Shown one piece after another: positions 1 to 5,734 of a stretch of 5,936 nucleotides of DNA; positions within the stretch are counted from its first letter, which is position 1, and each line of letters opens with the position of its first letter. A program made the position numbers and the translations under genes. Under the pieces are notes generated by a model that was given only the letters and a program-made list of their open reading frames with translations, had not been told where the DNA came from and made no database searches. This DNA comes from Candidatus Zixiibacteriota bacterium (GTDB lineage Bacteria; RBG-13-66-14; B26-G2; WVWN01): assembly GCA_030613505.1 (NCBI GenBank), contig JAUWLW010000081.1:1-5936 (forward strand). The letters run 5' to 3'.

Positions 1-368
1 TCAGGCCTTTCTTCGGCGCGCGCTTCGCAACCAGCGGCGTGGGCGGCTCGGTGGGCCAGCTCGGCATATTGGGCGGCGTACGCTTCAAGCCGTCGCCCAC
101 CAAATGCACCTTCTCGGACCTGTACTTCGGCTGGCGCGGCCACTACGGCAGCCTGGGCTTCGAAGAGGCGGAAGAGGACGAGGGCTGGAAGAGCGGCTTC
201 GCGTTTCGCAACGCCAACACTATCGAAATCGCCCTCCCCTTCTGCATCTACATCACGGCGGCACTCGACTACGACTTCACGAAGGTCGAACCCGCCAGCC
301 GGGGGGAAGAGGAAACGAGCCGCAAGCCCACCTTCAGCGGCGGCTTCGGCCCGGCGTTCTTTTTCTAA
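1..368 (+). CDS. C-terminal part of a probable outer-membrane beta-barrel protein (5' end outside window)
   Basis: An open frame runs in from the left edge (first full codon at 3) and ends with TAA at 366-368, giving 121 residues. No start codon is assigned because the gene continues beyond the window. The visible part alternates polar and hydrophobic or aromatic residues in short strands separated by Gly- or charge-rich turns, for example FSDLYFGWRGHYGSLGF and IEIALPFCIYITAALDY. The protein ends in Phe-Phe-Phe. A C-terminal aromatic residue on a final beta strand is the known recognition signal for BAM-dependent insertion of outer-membrane barrels. From this I infer an outer-membrane protein of a diderm cell. 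The specific family and cargo cannot be read from this fragment. A soluble beta-rich secreted protein is the main alternative. The following gene is 123 nt away on the same strand. Confidence 0.6.
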   Translation, partial: RPFFGARFATSGVGGSVGQLGILGGVRFKPSPTKCTFSDLYFGWRGHYGSLGFEEAEEDEGWKSGFAFRNANTIEIALPFCIYITAALDYDFTKVEPASRGEEETSRKPTFSGGFGPAFFF

Positions 369-491: not shown

Positions 492-1883
492 GTGAAGTTA
501 AACTACCTCCTCGCCGATACTCACGTTCACCTCGAGCACGAGGGTTTCGCCGCGGACGCGGCCGACGTGATAGCGCGCGGCCGCGAGGCGGGCGTACGCT
601 ACATGGTCGTCCCCGTCTGCGCCGCGGCCGACGCGGCCCGGGGGCTCGAGCTCGCCCGCGGCCACGACGGCGCATACTTCGCCGCCGGCCTCCACCCCAA
701 CTGCGGCCTGCACCTCGACGACGCCGAGGCCGCCGGCCTCCGGGATGCCTTGGTGCGCGGAAAGGAGGAGGGGCTGGCGGTCGCCGTCGGCGAGTGCGGC
801 CTGGACTACCACTACGCGGCGCTGCCGCGCGACGAGCAGCTCGCGCTCGTCCGCTGGCACCTCGAGTTGGCGCGCGAGCTGGAGCTGCCGATAATTCTCC
901 ACCAGCGCGACGCCGAGGCGGACCTCAGGCGCGTTCTGGACGAGGAGGGGCCGCCGCCCCGCGGCGGCGTCCTCCACTGCTTCTCCGGGGATTTGGAATA
1001 TTACCGGTGGGCGCGAGAACGCGGCCTCTTCGTCTCTTTCACCGGGAACATAACGTACGGGGGGAAGAGCCGACCGCCGGCCTACTTCGGCGAGCTGGAC
1101 CTCGCCACGACGATGCTCGAGACCGACGCGCCTTATATGGCGCCGATACCGCGCCGGGGAAAGCGAAACGAGCCGGCCTACCTGCCGCTCGTCGCCGAGG
1201 CGCTGAGCGCTCGAGCCGCCAGGCCGCTGGAAGACGTCTACGCCGAAACGACGCTGGCGGCGCGGCGCTTCTTCGACCTCGCTCCCGACTTCGGCGGCGC
1301 CGTCGCGTACCGCTTGAGGAACTCGCTCTACCTGAACGTTACCAACCGGTGCACGAACGCGTGTCGGTTTTGCATCCGCGAGCGCGCGCCGGGCGTGGGC
1401 GGCTACGACCTGCGGCTGAGGATGGAACCGACGGCGGCCGAGATTATCGCCGCGGTCGGGGACGCGGCCACGTACGACGAGGTCGTATTCTGCGGCTACG
1501 GCGAGCCCACGATACGCTGGGACGCCGTGAAGGAAGTGGCCCGGGCCGCGAAGGAGGCCGGCGGCATCGTGCGGCTGAACACCAACGGCTCGGCTAATCT
1601 GACGCAAGGCCGGGACGTCACGCCGGAGTTGGCCGGCCTGTTCGACAAGGTATCGGTGAGCGTCAACGCGGCGGACGAGGCCGCGTACGAGCGGCTGTGT
1701 CGGCCGCGGGCCGGCGCCGCCGCCTGGCGCGCGGCGGAGAAATTCGTGACCGGCGCCAAGCGCCACGTGCCCAAAGTCGCGATAACCGCCGTCGCCGCCG
1801 AGGCGGTACCGGTCGAGGCCGTGGAGCGGCTGGCGAAGAAGTGGGGTGTCGCTTTCCGCGTTCGCCGCTACGCCGAAGGGTAA
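492..1883 (+). CDS. TatD-family metal-dependent hydrolase fused to a radical SAM domain
   Basis: The 463-residue protein has two domains. Residues about 5-263 are a TatD-type TIM-barrel hydrolase (DNase or related phosphoesterase). The metal ligands all look present: DTHVH (H11, H13), GECGLDYHY (E101), ILHQRDA (H137), LHCFSG (H162) and ETDAPY (D212). Residues about 275-463 are a radical SAM domain with the classic CX3CX2C iron-sulfur motif (C287, C291, C294, in NRCTNACRFC), a GYGEPT motif (335-340) of the kind that contacts SAM, and LNTNG (362-366). The radical SAM half is short (about 190 residues) and has no obvious second cluster domain. Radical SAM proteins beside or fused to TatD are a recognised family (TatD-linked radical SAM, TIGR04038 as I recall); its reaction is unknown to me. 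The GTG start fits TatD length, since the DTHVH motif normally lies within the first 15 residues, but no clear Shine-Dalgarno sequence precedes it. The protein is probably cytosolic. Confidence 0.9.
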   Translation: MKLNYLLADTHVHLEHEGFAADAADVIARGREAGVRYMVVPVCAAADAARGLELARGHDGAYFAAGLHPNCGLHLDDAEAAGLRDALVRGKEEGLAVAVGECGLDYHYAALPRDEQLALVRWHLELARELELPIILHQRDAEADLRRVLDEEGPPPRGGVLHCFSGDLEYYRWARERGLFVSFTGNITYGGKSRPPAYFGELDLATTMLETDAPYMAPIPRRGKRNEPAYLPLVAEALSARAARPLEDVYAETTLAARRFFDLAPDFGGAVAYRLRNSLYLNVTNRCTNACRFCIRERAPGVGGYDLRLRMEPTAAEIIAAVGDAATYDEVVFCGYGEPTIRWDAVKEVARAAKEAGGIVRLNTNGSANLTQGRDVTPELAGLFDKVSVSVNAADEAAYERLCRPRAGAAAWRAAEKFVTGAKRHVPKVAITAVAAEAVPVEAVERLAKKWGVAFRVRRYAEG

Positions 1884-2246: not shown

Positions 2247-3407
2247 CTACTGTTGTTCGTAGAGCTCTTGCCCCTTCCGGAGGTATTCTTTGCCCTTCTC
2301 GTACTCGCCGATCTCGCCGTACGCCTTACCGAGGTTGATGTATATGCGGTAGTCGTCGGGCGTAAACTCTAACGCCTGCTCTAAAAACTCTATCGCCTTC
2401 TTGGGGTCGCGCCCTTCGTATTCTTTCTTCAAATAATAGGAAGCGATCTCGCCGAGGACCTCGCCCTTAATCTTCGGGTCCTCGGTGGTCTCGGCCACGA
2501 CCTGATAGGTCGCAATCGCCTCGTCGACGCGGCCCAACTTATTCAGAACGGCCGCCTTGGCGTTCAACAGCATCATGTCGCCGGGCTTCTCTTCCAGGAG
2601 CGGGTCGATAACGGCGAGCGCGCGCTCGTACTTCTCGAGGCGCAAACAAGAGTTGACGACCTTACGGAGGTACTCGCCCGGCGGCGTCTTCTCGTCCCAG
2701 TTCGGCCCGGACATATCGGCGCGCTTCGCCCCGACCGCCATTTCGTACGTATCCAGGACTTTGTCCCACATCTCGTCGGCGTACTCGCCGGCCTTTACCC
2801 GGCGCTGGGCCGCGGCGCCGGTGTCGAGGTCGTATTCCGTAACGTCCACCGCCTCCTCGGCGTCCAGCTCGCCGTAGTAGTTCGCTTTCTCCTCGTAGAC
2901 CAGGCCCAACATGAAAAGCGTCTTGGGGTGGGCGTCGAAGACGTGGTACGTCGCGACGAACCCCTCCTCGGCCTTATCCAGAGCGCCGGCTCTCGTCTCC
3001 CCCTCCTCGGGAACGAACTCAGGGTTGTTGAAGCTCAGCGCGCGGGCGAGGTGTTCATGTCCGGCGTTGAAAGCCTGGGACCAAAAAAACTCCCGGCTTT
3101 GGAGTATCTTATCTATTTTTTTCTTCTTGTTCTTCCGAGAGTATATTTCCTCCGCGCGGGACCACGCGTCGGCCGCCTTCATAAACTCACTCTCGTGAGC
3201 GTAAGCGTCGCCGAGATACGCCCAGGCTTCCGCGTTGTCGGGAGACTCGGCGACGTCCGCTTCCAACAGCTTGATGGCCGCCTCGTATTCGTCCTGCCGC
3301 ATGTGGACGATGGCGCCTGCAACACGCCAGGACTTCGCCAACACGACGCCGTTTAGCGCAATGAGCATTACCACGCAAGAAACGATGATTCTGGTGCGCA
3401 CCGACAT
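2247..3407 (-). CDS. Exported TPR-repeat protein
   Basis: The 386-residue protein begins with a basic n-region (VRTR) and a hydrophobic stretch at about residues 7-24 ending VVLA-K, which reads as a signal peptide or a single membrane anchor. TPR helices follow at about 38-90 (including AWAYLGDAYA) and in a C-terminal block at about 250-384 (NAKAAVLNKLGRVDEAI, INLGKAYGEIGEYEKG). A Lys-rich patch (KNKKKKIDK, 92-100) and a helical, acidic middle lie between them. TPR arrays are protein-binding scaffolds, so the likely role is assembly in the periplasm or at the membrane; no catalytic motif is visible. The open frame extends upstream to 3470, but those codons run through the promoter. AAGGAGG (3410-3416) lies only 2 nt before the ATG at 3407 and 8 nt before a GTG at 3401, so initiation at the GTG, two codons later, is possible. 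Tandem stops TAG TAA end the gene. Lys, Ile and Tyr are more frequent here than in the neighbouring genes. Confidence 0.85.
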   Translation of the reverse strand: MSVRTRIIVSCVVMLIALNGVVLAKSWRVAGAIVHMRQDEYEAAIKLLEADVAESPDNAEAWAYLGDAYAHESEFMKAADAWSRAEEIYSRKNKKKKIDKILQSREFFWSQAFNAGHEHLARALSFNNPEFVPEEGETRAGALDKAEEGFVATYHVFDAHPKTLFMLGLVYEEKANYYGELDAEEAVDVTEYDLDTGAAAQRRVKAGEYADEMWDKVLDTYEMAVGAKRADMSGPNWDEKTPPGEYLRKVVNSCLRLEKYERALAVIDPLLEEKPGDMMLLNAKAAVLNKLGRVDEAIATYQVVAETTEDPKIKGEVLGEIASYYLKKEYEGRDPKKAIEFLEQALEFTPDDYRIYINLGKAYGEIGEYEKGKEYLRKGQELYEQQ

Positions 3408-3409
3408 TT

Positions 3410-3416
3410 CCTCCTT
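3410..3416 (-). promoter_or_regulatory. Strong Shine-Dalgarno site of the TPR gene
   Basis: On the minus strand the bases read AAGGAGG, a near-perfect anti-16S match. Spacing to the ATG (3407) is only 2 nt, shorter than usual, and to the in-frame GTG (3401) is 8 nt, close to ideal. The site rules out the longer frame start at 3470 and leaves a two-codon uncertainty. Confidence 0.8.
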
Positions 3417-3426
3417 GTTTTGATTA

Positions 3427-3455
3427 AATCTATCACAGCCAAACTCGACAGTCAA
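3427..3455 (-). promoter_or_regulatory. Sigma70-like promoter of the TPR/zinc-ribbon operon
   Basis: On the minus strand, TTGACT (3455-3450, 5 of 6 to the -35 consensus) is followed after exactly 17 nt by TAGATT (3432-3427, 4 of 6 to the -10). A TG one base before the -10 makes it an extended -10 element. Transcription would start near 3420, giving a short leader that holds little more than the Shine-Dalgarno site. This is the best promoter in the window. Confidence 0.75.
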
Positions 3456-3456
3456 G

Positions 3457-3468
3457 GGGTTAAAACCC
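3457..3468. promoter_or_regulatory. Possible operator palindrome upstream of the TPR promoter
   Basis: GGGTT-AA-AACCC is a perfect 5-bp inverted repeat around AA, placed one base upstream of the minus-strand -35 element and about 40 bp upstream of the plus-strand promoter. A regulator binding here could act on both divergent genes. The site is short, so chance is a real possibility. It resembles the palindrome at 3615-3626. Confidence 0.3.
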
Positions 3469-3505
3469 AAAATTACGGCAACCCCGCTCCGCCGCGATAA
3501 AAAAC

Positions 3506-3686: not shown

Positions 3687-3950
3687 ATGCCCGCAGGTAA
3701 GAGCCTTGTCAAAGGTTTAATAATCGTAATCATAGGCGCGCTCTTGGGTACGATGGTCGGCGAACTCCTGGGCGCGTACCTCCCGGAAGGCGGCGTAAAA
3801 AATTTCTTCCTCAAAAGTATCACCTTCGGCCTCGACCCCGCCACCCTTAACCTGCACATCCTGGCGCTGACCTTCGGATTGATTTTAAAGATAAACGTCC
3901 TCACGATAATCGGCATCATCGGCGCCGCTTTTATCCTCCGCAAGCTTTAG
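3687..3950 (+). CDS. DUF4321-type small membrane protein
   Basis: The 87-residue protein has two hydrophobic segments: about residues 7-31 (LIIVIIGALLGTMVGELLGAYL region) and about 55-84 (ILALTFGLILKINVLTIIG onward). They are joined by a segment containing FGLDPATLNL, and the protein ends in the basic tail RKL. Length, the order of segments, the Gly/Glu pattern in the first helix (GxxxGELLG) and the motifs TFGLDP and LTFGLILKIN match my recollection of DUF4321, a family of about 80-90-residue membrane proteins of unknown function. Location is the cytoplasmic membrane; topology is not fixed by the sequence. The ATG is supported by AAGGGAG 8 nt upstream. It is the first gene of a probable operon, 29 nt before the exported protein. 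Confidence 0.8.
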   Translation: MPAGKSLVKGLIIVIIGALLGTMVGELLGAYLPEGGVKNFFLKSITFGLDPATLNLHILALTFGLILKINVLTIIGIIGAAFILRKL

Positions 3951-3979: not shown

Positions 3980-5734
3980 ATGCACTCTAAATCCTCGGCA
4001 ATATTCCTGGCGGCCGGCGCGGCCGTCTTTTTATGTTGCGCCCCCCGCGGCGACGAAACGCCGGAATACTTCGCCGTCCGAAGCCGCGGCGCAACCGTCG
4101 GTTGGATCAGCCGCGCCGAATCGGCGCCCCGCCGGGATTCCTCGGGCGCTTTCGCCGCGACCGAGTGCCGGCTCCACTTACGCCGTTGGGCCGACGGCCG
4201 CGGCACCGTGGAGGACGAGCTCGCGCTGGTAGCGGCGCGGCGCCCCGGCGAACCGACCCACTACGTCGCCGGGCGCTGGGAGGGCGGCGAATTCCGCTAC
4301 CGGCGCGGCGATTCCTGGTACTACAAACTCATCGACGAATTTGGGAACGTAACGGAAAGGCGCGGCCCCCGGGCACCCGCATTCCTGACGTTCAAGGGAA
4401 TCGCGCTCCCGGTCGCGACGTCGCGTTACGCGACCCGAACGCCGACCGTTGCGAGCCTCGACGTCGCCGACGGCCGCGTCTCGCGCTACCGAGGCCGCGG
4501 CGACGGCCGCTCGTGGACCGGCCGCGGCGACGCCGGCTACGTCAGAGTAACTTTCGACGCCGAGGGCGCGGTTTCAACCTTCGTGAACGGGGAACTAAGC
4601 GCCAGCCGCTCGCAAAACCGGCCGCGGCCGCGCGCCTTCCTGTACCGAAGGCCGTCTTTGGCTTACCTACCGTTCATACTCCGGCCGCGGCCGCGGGCGC
4701 TCCGACTTAGCCTACCGATAACGGCCCGGTTGTCGCGGCCGGTTCGCCCGGAAGACCTCACCCGGCCCGGCCAGCCCTTCGACGGCGCAACGGCCGGTAG
4801 CGTGGTAAACGGCACGTTTACCTTAGAACCCTCCCGCCAACCGCCGCTCGAGGCGGCCGCCGGGGACTTCGCGCCGGCGGGGCAGGAAACGTGGCCCGGA
4901 ATACAAGGGACGGGAGAGCTCGAGCGGTTGGCGGCGTCGTACCGTGCCGCCGGAAAAAGGGTCCGGTTCTGTACCGGCCTGGGGGTCTTCGCCGGCAACC
5001 TGCTGGCGTCGTACGACTGGCTCGAGGTGGACGGCCGGGCGGTCGCGGCGCCCGGGCGGCCTGCGCCCCAACTACGCGTCGCGCTCGCGACGTCCCAAGA
5101 GCCGGCTACGGTAATCAAGTTCGCGGTGGCCGGCGAGCCGGAAGCCGAGGGACGAACCGCGCGAGCGATAGCCACGGAAATCCCGGCCTTAAAAAACGGC
5201 GCCGAATTCTTCTACGCCGTATATTACGCCGGCACGCCGGCCGGCGGCGTCGCCGCCTGGTACGAGAAGTCGCCGCGGGAGCCGGCGATAGTCTACATCT
5301 ACGGCGAAATCTTCGGCAACGTCGTCGCGGGCGTCGCCGCGTGTAATCCGACTTGCGGCGCGCCGCCGGATGCCGTCCGCGGCCCCGCCTTCGCCGAATT
5401 CATTGCGCTCGGCGCGGCCGTCGCCGTAGCAGCCGAGGACGACACGCCGCCGTACGAATTCTGTTTTCCGGCCGCCGGCGGCCCGGCCCGGGCCAAATGG
5501 CGGCGACTCAAACCCGTCGTCGTATCGGGCGAATGGCGGCTATGCCGCGAGTATCTACTCGAGCCGGGCCCTCTGCGCGCTTATTATACCCACGATGGCA
5601 TCTTAACCCGCCTGGAGTGGCACAACTACGTCGCCCGGCTGGCGGCCTTTCCGCGCCGCGCCCCCGCCCGCGAAAGCCGGCCGCCCGAGGCGCCCCCGCC
5701 CTCCCCGGCCGGCGGCGAAGGAGGGAACGAATGA
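3980..5734 (+). CDS. Exported protein with a degenerate transglutaminase-like core
   Basis: The 584-residue protein has an N-terminal signal sequence: K4, then a hydrophobic stretch at about residues 7-18 ending FLCCAP. C19 or C20 could be lipidated, but neither fits the lipobox well. Residues about 28-245 are beta-rich with a Y-x-V-x3-G-x2-V-GW pattern. Residues about 308-358 resemble the core of a transglutaminase-like domain (GTGELERLAASYRAAGKRV, then GLGVFAG, then WLEVDGR). The expected Cys is G312, the His is missing at ASYDW, and the Asp is missing at AAPG, so catalysis is not expected. Residues about 408-556 look like a second copy of the N-terminal module. The C-terminal 28 residues are Pro/Glu/Gly-rich and probably disordered. 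The ATG is the only start near the signal sequence; its ribosome site is weak, so coupling to the gene 29 nt upstream is possible. Exported function unknown; a binding or scaffold role is my guess. Confidence 0.75.
   Translation: MHSKSSAIFLAAGAAVFLCCAPRGDETPEYFAVRSRGATVGWISRAESAPRRDSSGAFAATECRLHLRRWADGRGTVEDELALVAARRPGEPTHYVAGRWEGGEFRYRRGDSWYYKLIDEFGNVTERRGPRAPAFLTFKGIALPVATSRYATRTPTVASLDVADGRVSRYRGRGDGRSWTGRGDAGYVRVTFDAEGAVSTFVNGELSASRSQNRPRPRAFLYRRPSLAYLPFILRPRPRALRLSLPITARLSRPVRPEDLTRPGQPFDGATAGSVVNGTFTLEPSRQPPLEAAAGDFAPAGQETWPGIQGTGELERLAASYRAAGKRVRFCTGLGVFAGNLLASYDWLEVDGRAVAAPGRPAPQLRVALATSQEPATVIKFAVAGEPEAEGRTARAIATEIPALKNGAEFFYAVYYAGTPAGGVAAWYEKSPREPAIVYIYGEIFGNVVAGVAACNPTCGAPPDAVRGPAFAEFIALGAAVAVAAEDDTPPYEFCFPAAGGPARAKWRRLKPVVVSGEWRLCREYLLEPGPLRAYYTHDGILTRLEWHNYVARLAAFPRRAPARESRPPEAPPPSPAGGEGGNE
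4618..4632 (+). repeat. GC-rich 15-base direct repeat, copy 1
   Basis: CCGGCCGCGGCCGCG occurs here and again at 4681-4695, 63 bases later (exactly 21 codons). Both copies encode RPRPRA (residues 214-219 and 235-240) in the exported protein and contain the palindrome CGGCCGCGGCCG. It may be a small internal duplication or biased codon use in Arg-Pro runs. Confidence 0.5.
4681..4695 (+). repeat. GC-rich 15-base direct repeat, copy 2
   Basis: This is an identical copy of the 15 bases at 4618-4632, in the same reading frame. The sequence between the copies (encoding FLYRRPSLAYLPFIL) shows no further similarity to its flanks. Confidence 0.5.
5718..5725 (+). promoter_or_regulatory. Shine-Dalgarno site of the nucleotidyltransferase gene
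   Basis: AAGGAGGG lies 5 nt before the ATG at 5731, inside the last codons of the upstream gene. With the 4-nt ATGA overlap it makes both direct initiation and translational coupling possible, and it fixes the start. Confidence 0.8.

Follow-up and report, generated by a model that had tools for sequence, protein, structure and literature searches.

The question raised by this locus is whether one open reading frame that joins a TatD hydrolase to a radical SAM domain encodes a genuine two-domain protein and, if so, what the two halves might accomplish together. The frame lies in a window of 5,936 nt (the whole stretch of DNA that was analysed) from a Candidatus Coatesbacteria genome, and its features, in window coordinates, are as follows.

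492..1883, + strand: TatD-radical SAM fusion gene, GTG start, 463 aa
516..1274, + strand: TatD metal-dependent nuclease half, residues 9-261, assigned to Group II (HxH); found with PF01026 in the genome search
522..530, + strand: HxH metal-binding motif, H11-V-H13; 97% conserved, the remainder gaps
792..794, + strand: E101, metal ligand, in 100% of 113 TatD halves
900..902, + strand: H137, metal ligand, in 100% of TatD halves
975..977, + strand: H162, metal ligand, in 99% of TatD halves
1125..1127, + strand: D212, metal ligand/catalytic residue, in 99% of TatD halves
1275..1307, + strand: interdomain linker, residues 262-272 (11 residues), from comparison with 87 fused relatives
1302..1871, + strand: radical SAM half, TIGR04038 domain, residues 271-460, delimited by the model match, AlphaFold2 and structure comparison
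1350..1373, + strand: CX3CX2C [4Fe-4S]/SAM motif, C287-C291-C294, in 98-99% of 122 sequences
1494..1508, + strand: GYGEP, residues 335-339, at the position of the SAM-binding GGE motif, from conservation in relatives

Homology to the fused relatives was found to begin at the start codon, the relatives having a median of five residues ahead of the residue-7 column. The fusion was also present in the same-genus genomes G001-G003 and in G004, and in CP070633 (locus L004), a Coatesbacteria chromosome and the nearest named record, where it is 72% identical; G002 and G004 are single contigs that carry it. An assembly error joining two genes, for which the sequence-only reading had allowed, is therefore ruled out by independent genomes, one-contig Coatesbacteria assemblies among them. 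The fusion was found again within the same order, the same class, and most members of the phylum, and the two members without a match are both incomplete assemblies (70-75%).

Both active sites were intact, as had been read from the gene itself. The TatD ligands H11, H13, E101, H137, H162, and D212 were all present, and across 113 TatD halves each of the six is 97-100% identical, with gaps accounting for the rest; the radical SAM cysteines C287, C291, and C294 are identical in 98-99% of 122 radical SAM halves. Within GYGEP, G335 and G337 were kept in all relatives, E338 in 98%, and P339 in 97%. In comparisons among Coatesbacteria, dN/dS ranged over 0.14-0.40 in the TatD half and, in the radical SAM half, over 0.11-0.22 (by a simple counting method, with dS high at the largest distances), values that indicate purifying selection on both halves. 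Thus, given its recurrence, the conservation of ligands and cysteines, and these ratios, the fusion is a conserved two-domain protein, and neither a chance nor a misassembled join.

The TatD half matched PF01026 (TatD_DNase) over residues 9-261 with 211.8 bits, against a Pfam gathering cut-off of 27 bits. The score for TIGR00010 (YchF/TatD family DNA exonuclease), 191.8 bits, was under the cut-off of 206. Since a fused relative, L230, reached 273.4, the shortfall reflects divergence of the present lineage and not of the fused form. N70, which is H in most relatives, is likewise ordinary divergence of this lineage. The cut-off for QatD of the Qat anti-phage system (230 bits) was not reached, at 34.7 bits. 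The highest score among three E. coli models was given by that for YcfH (PRK10812). The HxH motif defines Group II of the TatD enzymes, to which YcfH and YjjV of E. coli belong (PMC10085689), and the TatD half is best classed, from its sequence, as Group II and YcfH/YabD-like. Known nucleases of this type (6l25, 2gzx, 1j6o, 1yix) likewise have HxH and all ligands, and their structures matched the TatD half with fold Z scores of 34-37 (up to 36.9) over 251-260 residues. They also share a genomic neighbourhood with the relatives of the fusion. Unlike the fusion, which adds a radical SAM domain after TatD, they are single-domain proteins.

In 56 of the 64 genomes where TatD and the radical SAM domain are fused or adjacent, the linked TatD was the sole PF01026 match (E 1e-10) and must therefore perform the general TatD job there. 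In the best reading, the fusion is the cell's housekeeping TatD hydrolase, extended at its C-terminus by a minimal radical SAM domain that belongs to TIGR04038. Linked and unlinked TatD proteins differed at Y108 and at residues 244-252, near and on the last TatD helix. The Y108 difference is probably an artefact, because the pattern used to fetch the unlinked set covered this residue; the differences at 244-252 may mark the domain interface, though as an indication they are weak.

The radical SAM half matched TIGR04038 at residues 271-460 with 242.9 bits, nearly twice the cut-off of 129.7, and covered model positions 2-191 of 192. PF04055 (Radical_SAM) matched residues 282-417 with 63 bits (cut-off 29.5). 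TIGR04038 (tatD_link_rSAM) is curated as a TatD family nuclease-associated radical SAM protein, so that both the assignment and the remark that the pairing was already known proved right. The fusion shares with this family the full-length match, the CX3CX2C motif, and the TatD link; there is no difference of substance, and the present gene has the usual fused form. A different radical SAM family, the other outcome foreseen by the sequence-only reading, is ruled out by score: the related TIGR04100 (rSAM_pair_X) matched residues 271-460 with 170.3 bits, under its cut-off of 262. Some split and standalone relatives (L231, L011, L079) scored higher with TIGR04100 than with TIGR04038, yet under the TIGR04100 cut-off; for L231 the scores were 236.8 and 185.9 bits. 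Standalone radical SAM proteins lie at L231:7394-8053 and L232:7359-8018. Such scores make the boundary of the two families appear indistinct.

Outside the CX3CX2C triad, the only cysteines of the radical SAM half are C334 and C406, which indicates that it carries no SPASM or twitch auxiliary [4Fe-4S] cluster. MoaA models scored 28-38 bits against cut-offs of 231-325. The half was predicted by itself with AlphaFold2 (pLDDT 95.1, pTM 0.91), and the prediction was compared with known structures. The matches, with Z scores of 12-16 to radical SAM enzymes, extended over nearly the whole half: NifB (16.1), PFL-activating enzyme (15.8), viperin (15.0), TYW1 (14.7), RlmN (14.1), MoaA (12.5), and QueE (12.4). 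No sequence in the PDB matched the radical SAM half at E 0.01, and NifB, PFL-activating enzyme, viperin, and QueE share its core fold without being close relatives in sequence. These four enzymes extend C-terminally past the aligned core, whereas the radical SAM half is predicted to be a complete minimal core that ends where the core ends. A truncated or degenerate domain is ruled out by the completeness of the predicted fold and the intact triad. The half had been called unusually small; small it is, though not truncated, as known cores can be aligned with its predicted fold along the entire length. Since the known enzymes continue past the aligned core, the radical SAM active site may here be capped by another part of the chain, for which the TatD domain is a candidate.

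The top matches are practically tied (Z 16.1 to 14) and diverse, so the fold names no substrate, nor nucleic acid as the substrate. Viperin, MoaA, and QueE, all among these matches, carry out chemistry comparable to that of an enzyme whose radical SAM half forms or rearranges a metabolite resembling a nucleotide or pterin, the phosphoester or ring of which would be hydrolysed by the TatD half, acting as an amidohydrolase-type metal site. The radical SAM half is, moreover, without extra domains for a macromolecular substrate. We nevertheless regard this small-molecule role as unlikely: every nuclease ligand is kept, this TatD is the only one in most such genomes, and no biosynthetic genes recur beside the fusion.

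In two fused sequences of one family (L230:6471-7850 and L237, from genomes G086 and G356), the three cysteines are replaced by STC and STT, yet the score of the TatD half stays high. In the copy from G356, the six-frame match also contains two in-frame stops. The radical centre has thus been lost naturally in this pair.

If a fused radical SAM domain can be kept without its cluster, as in these two sequences, its role might be regulatory: an oxygen or redox sensor, or an activator of TatD, that switches the nuclease with the redox state and shares no substrate with it. Carriers of the domain were also depleted in haem-copper oxidase (31/101 vs 129/285, p = 0.013, uncorrected for kinship), a depletion so weak that this aerobe marker was set aside as a guide. 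A mere sensor, however, would need none of the SAM-motif and core residues that are conserved in ~98% of sequences, and the cysteine-less gene with stop codons may be decaying. We consider a regulatory role very improbable.

The linker, which had been put at only about 10 residues, was counted as 11, from F261, the last TatD residue, to Y273 of the radical SAM half; in 87 fused relatives the median is 12, and 74 of them have 11-13. AlphaFold2 modelled the full-length, two-domain fusion confidently throughout (pLDDT 95.6, pTM 0.92), with a well-ordered linker. Taken together, the near-constant linker and the confident whole-chain model suggest that domain placement is likely fixed and conserved.

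TIGR04038 was present in 101 of the 386 genomes of a domain-wide sample, with a single match each (E 1e-25); the sample leans to uncultured lineages, and the fraction is no census. The survey of fused and separate forms that had been suggested for this family covered 99 loci, the present gene's own included. In 83 of them TatD and the radical SAM domain form one ORF, in seven TatD is a nearby upstream gene, and in nine the two are apart; thus 90 of the 99 are fused or adjacent. The fused state is, in these sampled sequences, the family's normal and commonest form across many bacterial lineages. Named records show the adjacent arrangement to be typical of Oscillospiraceae and kin, and the fused form to be typical of Desulfuromonadales, Ignavibacteriales, Nitrospirota, Omnitrophota, Sumerlaeota, and Coatesbacteria. 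In the radical SAM tree, split forms are scattered among fused ones, which fits fission or re-association. In the TatD tree, the linked proteins group together on a weak backbone, with seven changes of link state. A repeated independent origin of the link was considered in view of these changes and set aside, as a single clade for the linked TatD halves was not rejected (p-AU 0.118).

Such a single origin, together with the existence of split forms, is what would be seen if the fusion were an old accident retained by descent, with no coupling of the two activities beyond co-expression. Against this stand the retention of the fused form and of a near-constant linker across great divergence, and the frequent adjacency of the split genes, and we think the explanation very unlikely. 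The earlier proposal of a common pathway for the two activities gains indirect support from three findings: the fusion is prevalent, its linker hardly varies in length, and the two domains are modelled with confidence. That the substrate is a nucleic-acid end for repair or processing would follow by analogy with TatD biochemistry (PMC4176340, PMC10085689).

TatD enzymes use two metals and act as 3'-5' exonucleases and AP-endonucleases, E. coli YcfH among them, and loss of TatD makes E. coli more sensitive to peroxide (H2O2; PMC4176340, PMC10085689). Since 3'-terminal 8-oxoG and abasic ends are poor substrates for E. coli TatD (PMC4176340), there is room for a second activity. We tentatively propose, at somewhat less than even likelihood, that the fusion is a two-step enzyme for processing nucleic-acid ends or lesions, in which radical chemistry is coupled to trimming. 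One chain would bind a single nucleic-acid substrate, and the radical SAM half would cleave SAM reductively to a 5'-deoxyadenosyl radical. Close to an end or nick, a nucleotide or sugar that is damaged or unusual could be reversed, fragmented, or modified by this radical. The TatD half would hydrolyse the adjoining phosphodiester with two metals, by 3'-5' exonuclease or AP-endonuclease chemistry, and the radical step would thereby be coupled to trimming. The structure matches include enzymes of nucleic acids and nucleotides (RlmN, TYW1, viperin), which speaks for such a role. Against it, PFL-activating enzyme and NifB match at practically tied Z scores, nine radical SAM loci have no TatD nearby, and E. 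coli can do without its TatD paralogues (PMC10085689).

The broader form of the proposal is rather more doubtful. It would make the fusion a widespread, undescribed enzyme of nucleic-acid repair, one chain of which treats damaged nucleotides or sugars by radical chemistry and couples this to hydrolytic removal, and which serves as the general TatD of many bacterial lineages. Radical-based nucleic-acid repair is represented by spore photoproduct lyase, and a coupled reaction, if found, would be a second kind of such repair or a new step in RNA-end processing. The original observation is true, the family had already been named by curators for its TatD link, the pairing is old as well as widespread, and the gene is ordinary for its lineage. 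About one quarter of the 386 sampled bacterial genomes carry the domain, mostly fused to their only TatD, yet a literature search returned no paper on TIGR04038, its reaction, or the TatD-radical SAM link.

The genes surrounding linked TatD are recurrent and share its strand: metG, ricT, holB, and tmk lie upstream, and rsmA lies downstream. Immediately upstream, metG (methionyl-tRNA synthetase) is found most often; downstream, it is rsmA. Such neighbours, and the digestion by E. coli TatD of ssRNA as well as ssDNA (PMC4176340), would suit an enzyme acting on tRNA or other RNA, either by radical modification or repair of a 3' end coupled to TatD trimming, or by deacylase proofreading in the TatD half. 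In control loci of TatD genes without the radical SAM domain, which had smaller flanks and were sampled differently, metG was found in 20 of 57, i.e. is equally a neighbour there, and holB in 14 of 57; the fusion also has no tRNA-binding domain. Some TatD-like proteins act as deacylases. The literature search found no paper supporting this role. On this evidence, we judge action on RNA to be improbable.

Since the neighbours are common to TatD genes without radical SAM, the tmk-holB-ricT-metG-tatD-rsmA neighbourhood belongs to TatD and says nothing specific on the radical SAM half. Neighbours were accordingly dropped as a guide to that half, none of tmk, holB, ricT, metG, and rsmA being found near the nine standalone radical SAM loci. 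The window itself also contains none of the five genes. In upstream flanks, ricT, which encodes an iron-sulphur protein, was seen at 40 of 91 fused vs 5 of 57 TatD-only loci, uncorrected for kinship and flank size.

Rfam gave no match within the window, and several other genes were noted there. Upstream of the fusion, the end of an ORF at 3-368 (+ strand) has no Pfam or NCBIfam match and terminates in ...FGPAFFF, an ending frequent in outer-membrane barrel proteins. In L004 and three same-genus loci, a 232-residue protein with no Pfam match lies directly 5' of the fusion. A tetratricopeptide-repeat protein at 2247-3470 (- strand) is a conserved neighbour of the fusion at 5 Coatesbacteria loci, and its gene is followed by that of a small acidic protein in which CX2C..CX2C marks a zinc ribbon (1935-2231, - strand). 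A small DUF4321 membrane protein (PF14209, 47.6 bits) is encoded at 3687-3950 (+ strand). The frame at 3980-5734 (+ strand) encodes 584 residues that begin like a lipoprotein (MHSKSSAIFLAAGAAVFLCC) and match no family; this protein is conserved in Coatesbacteria, in a cluster with members in L004, L182, L187, L211, L219, and L240.
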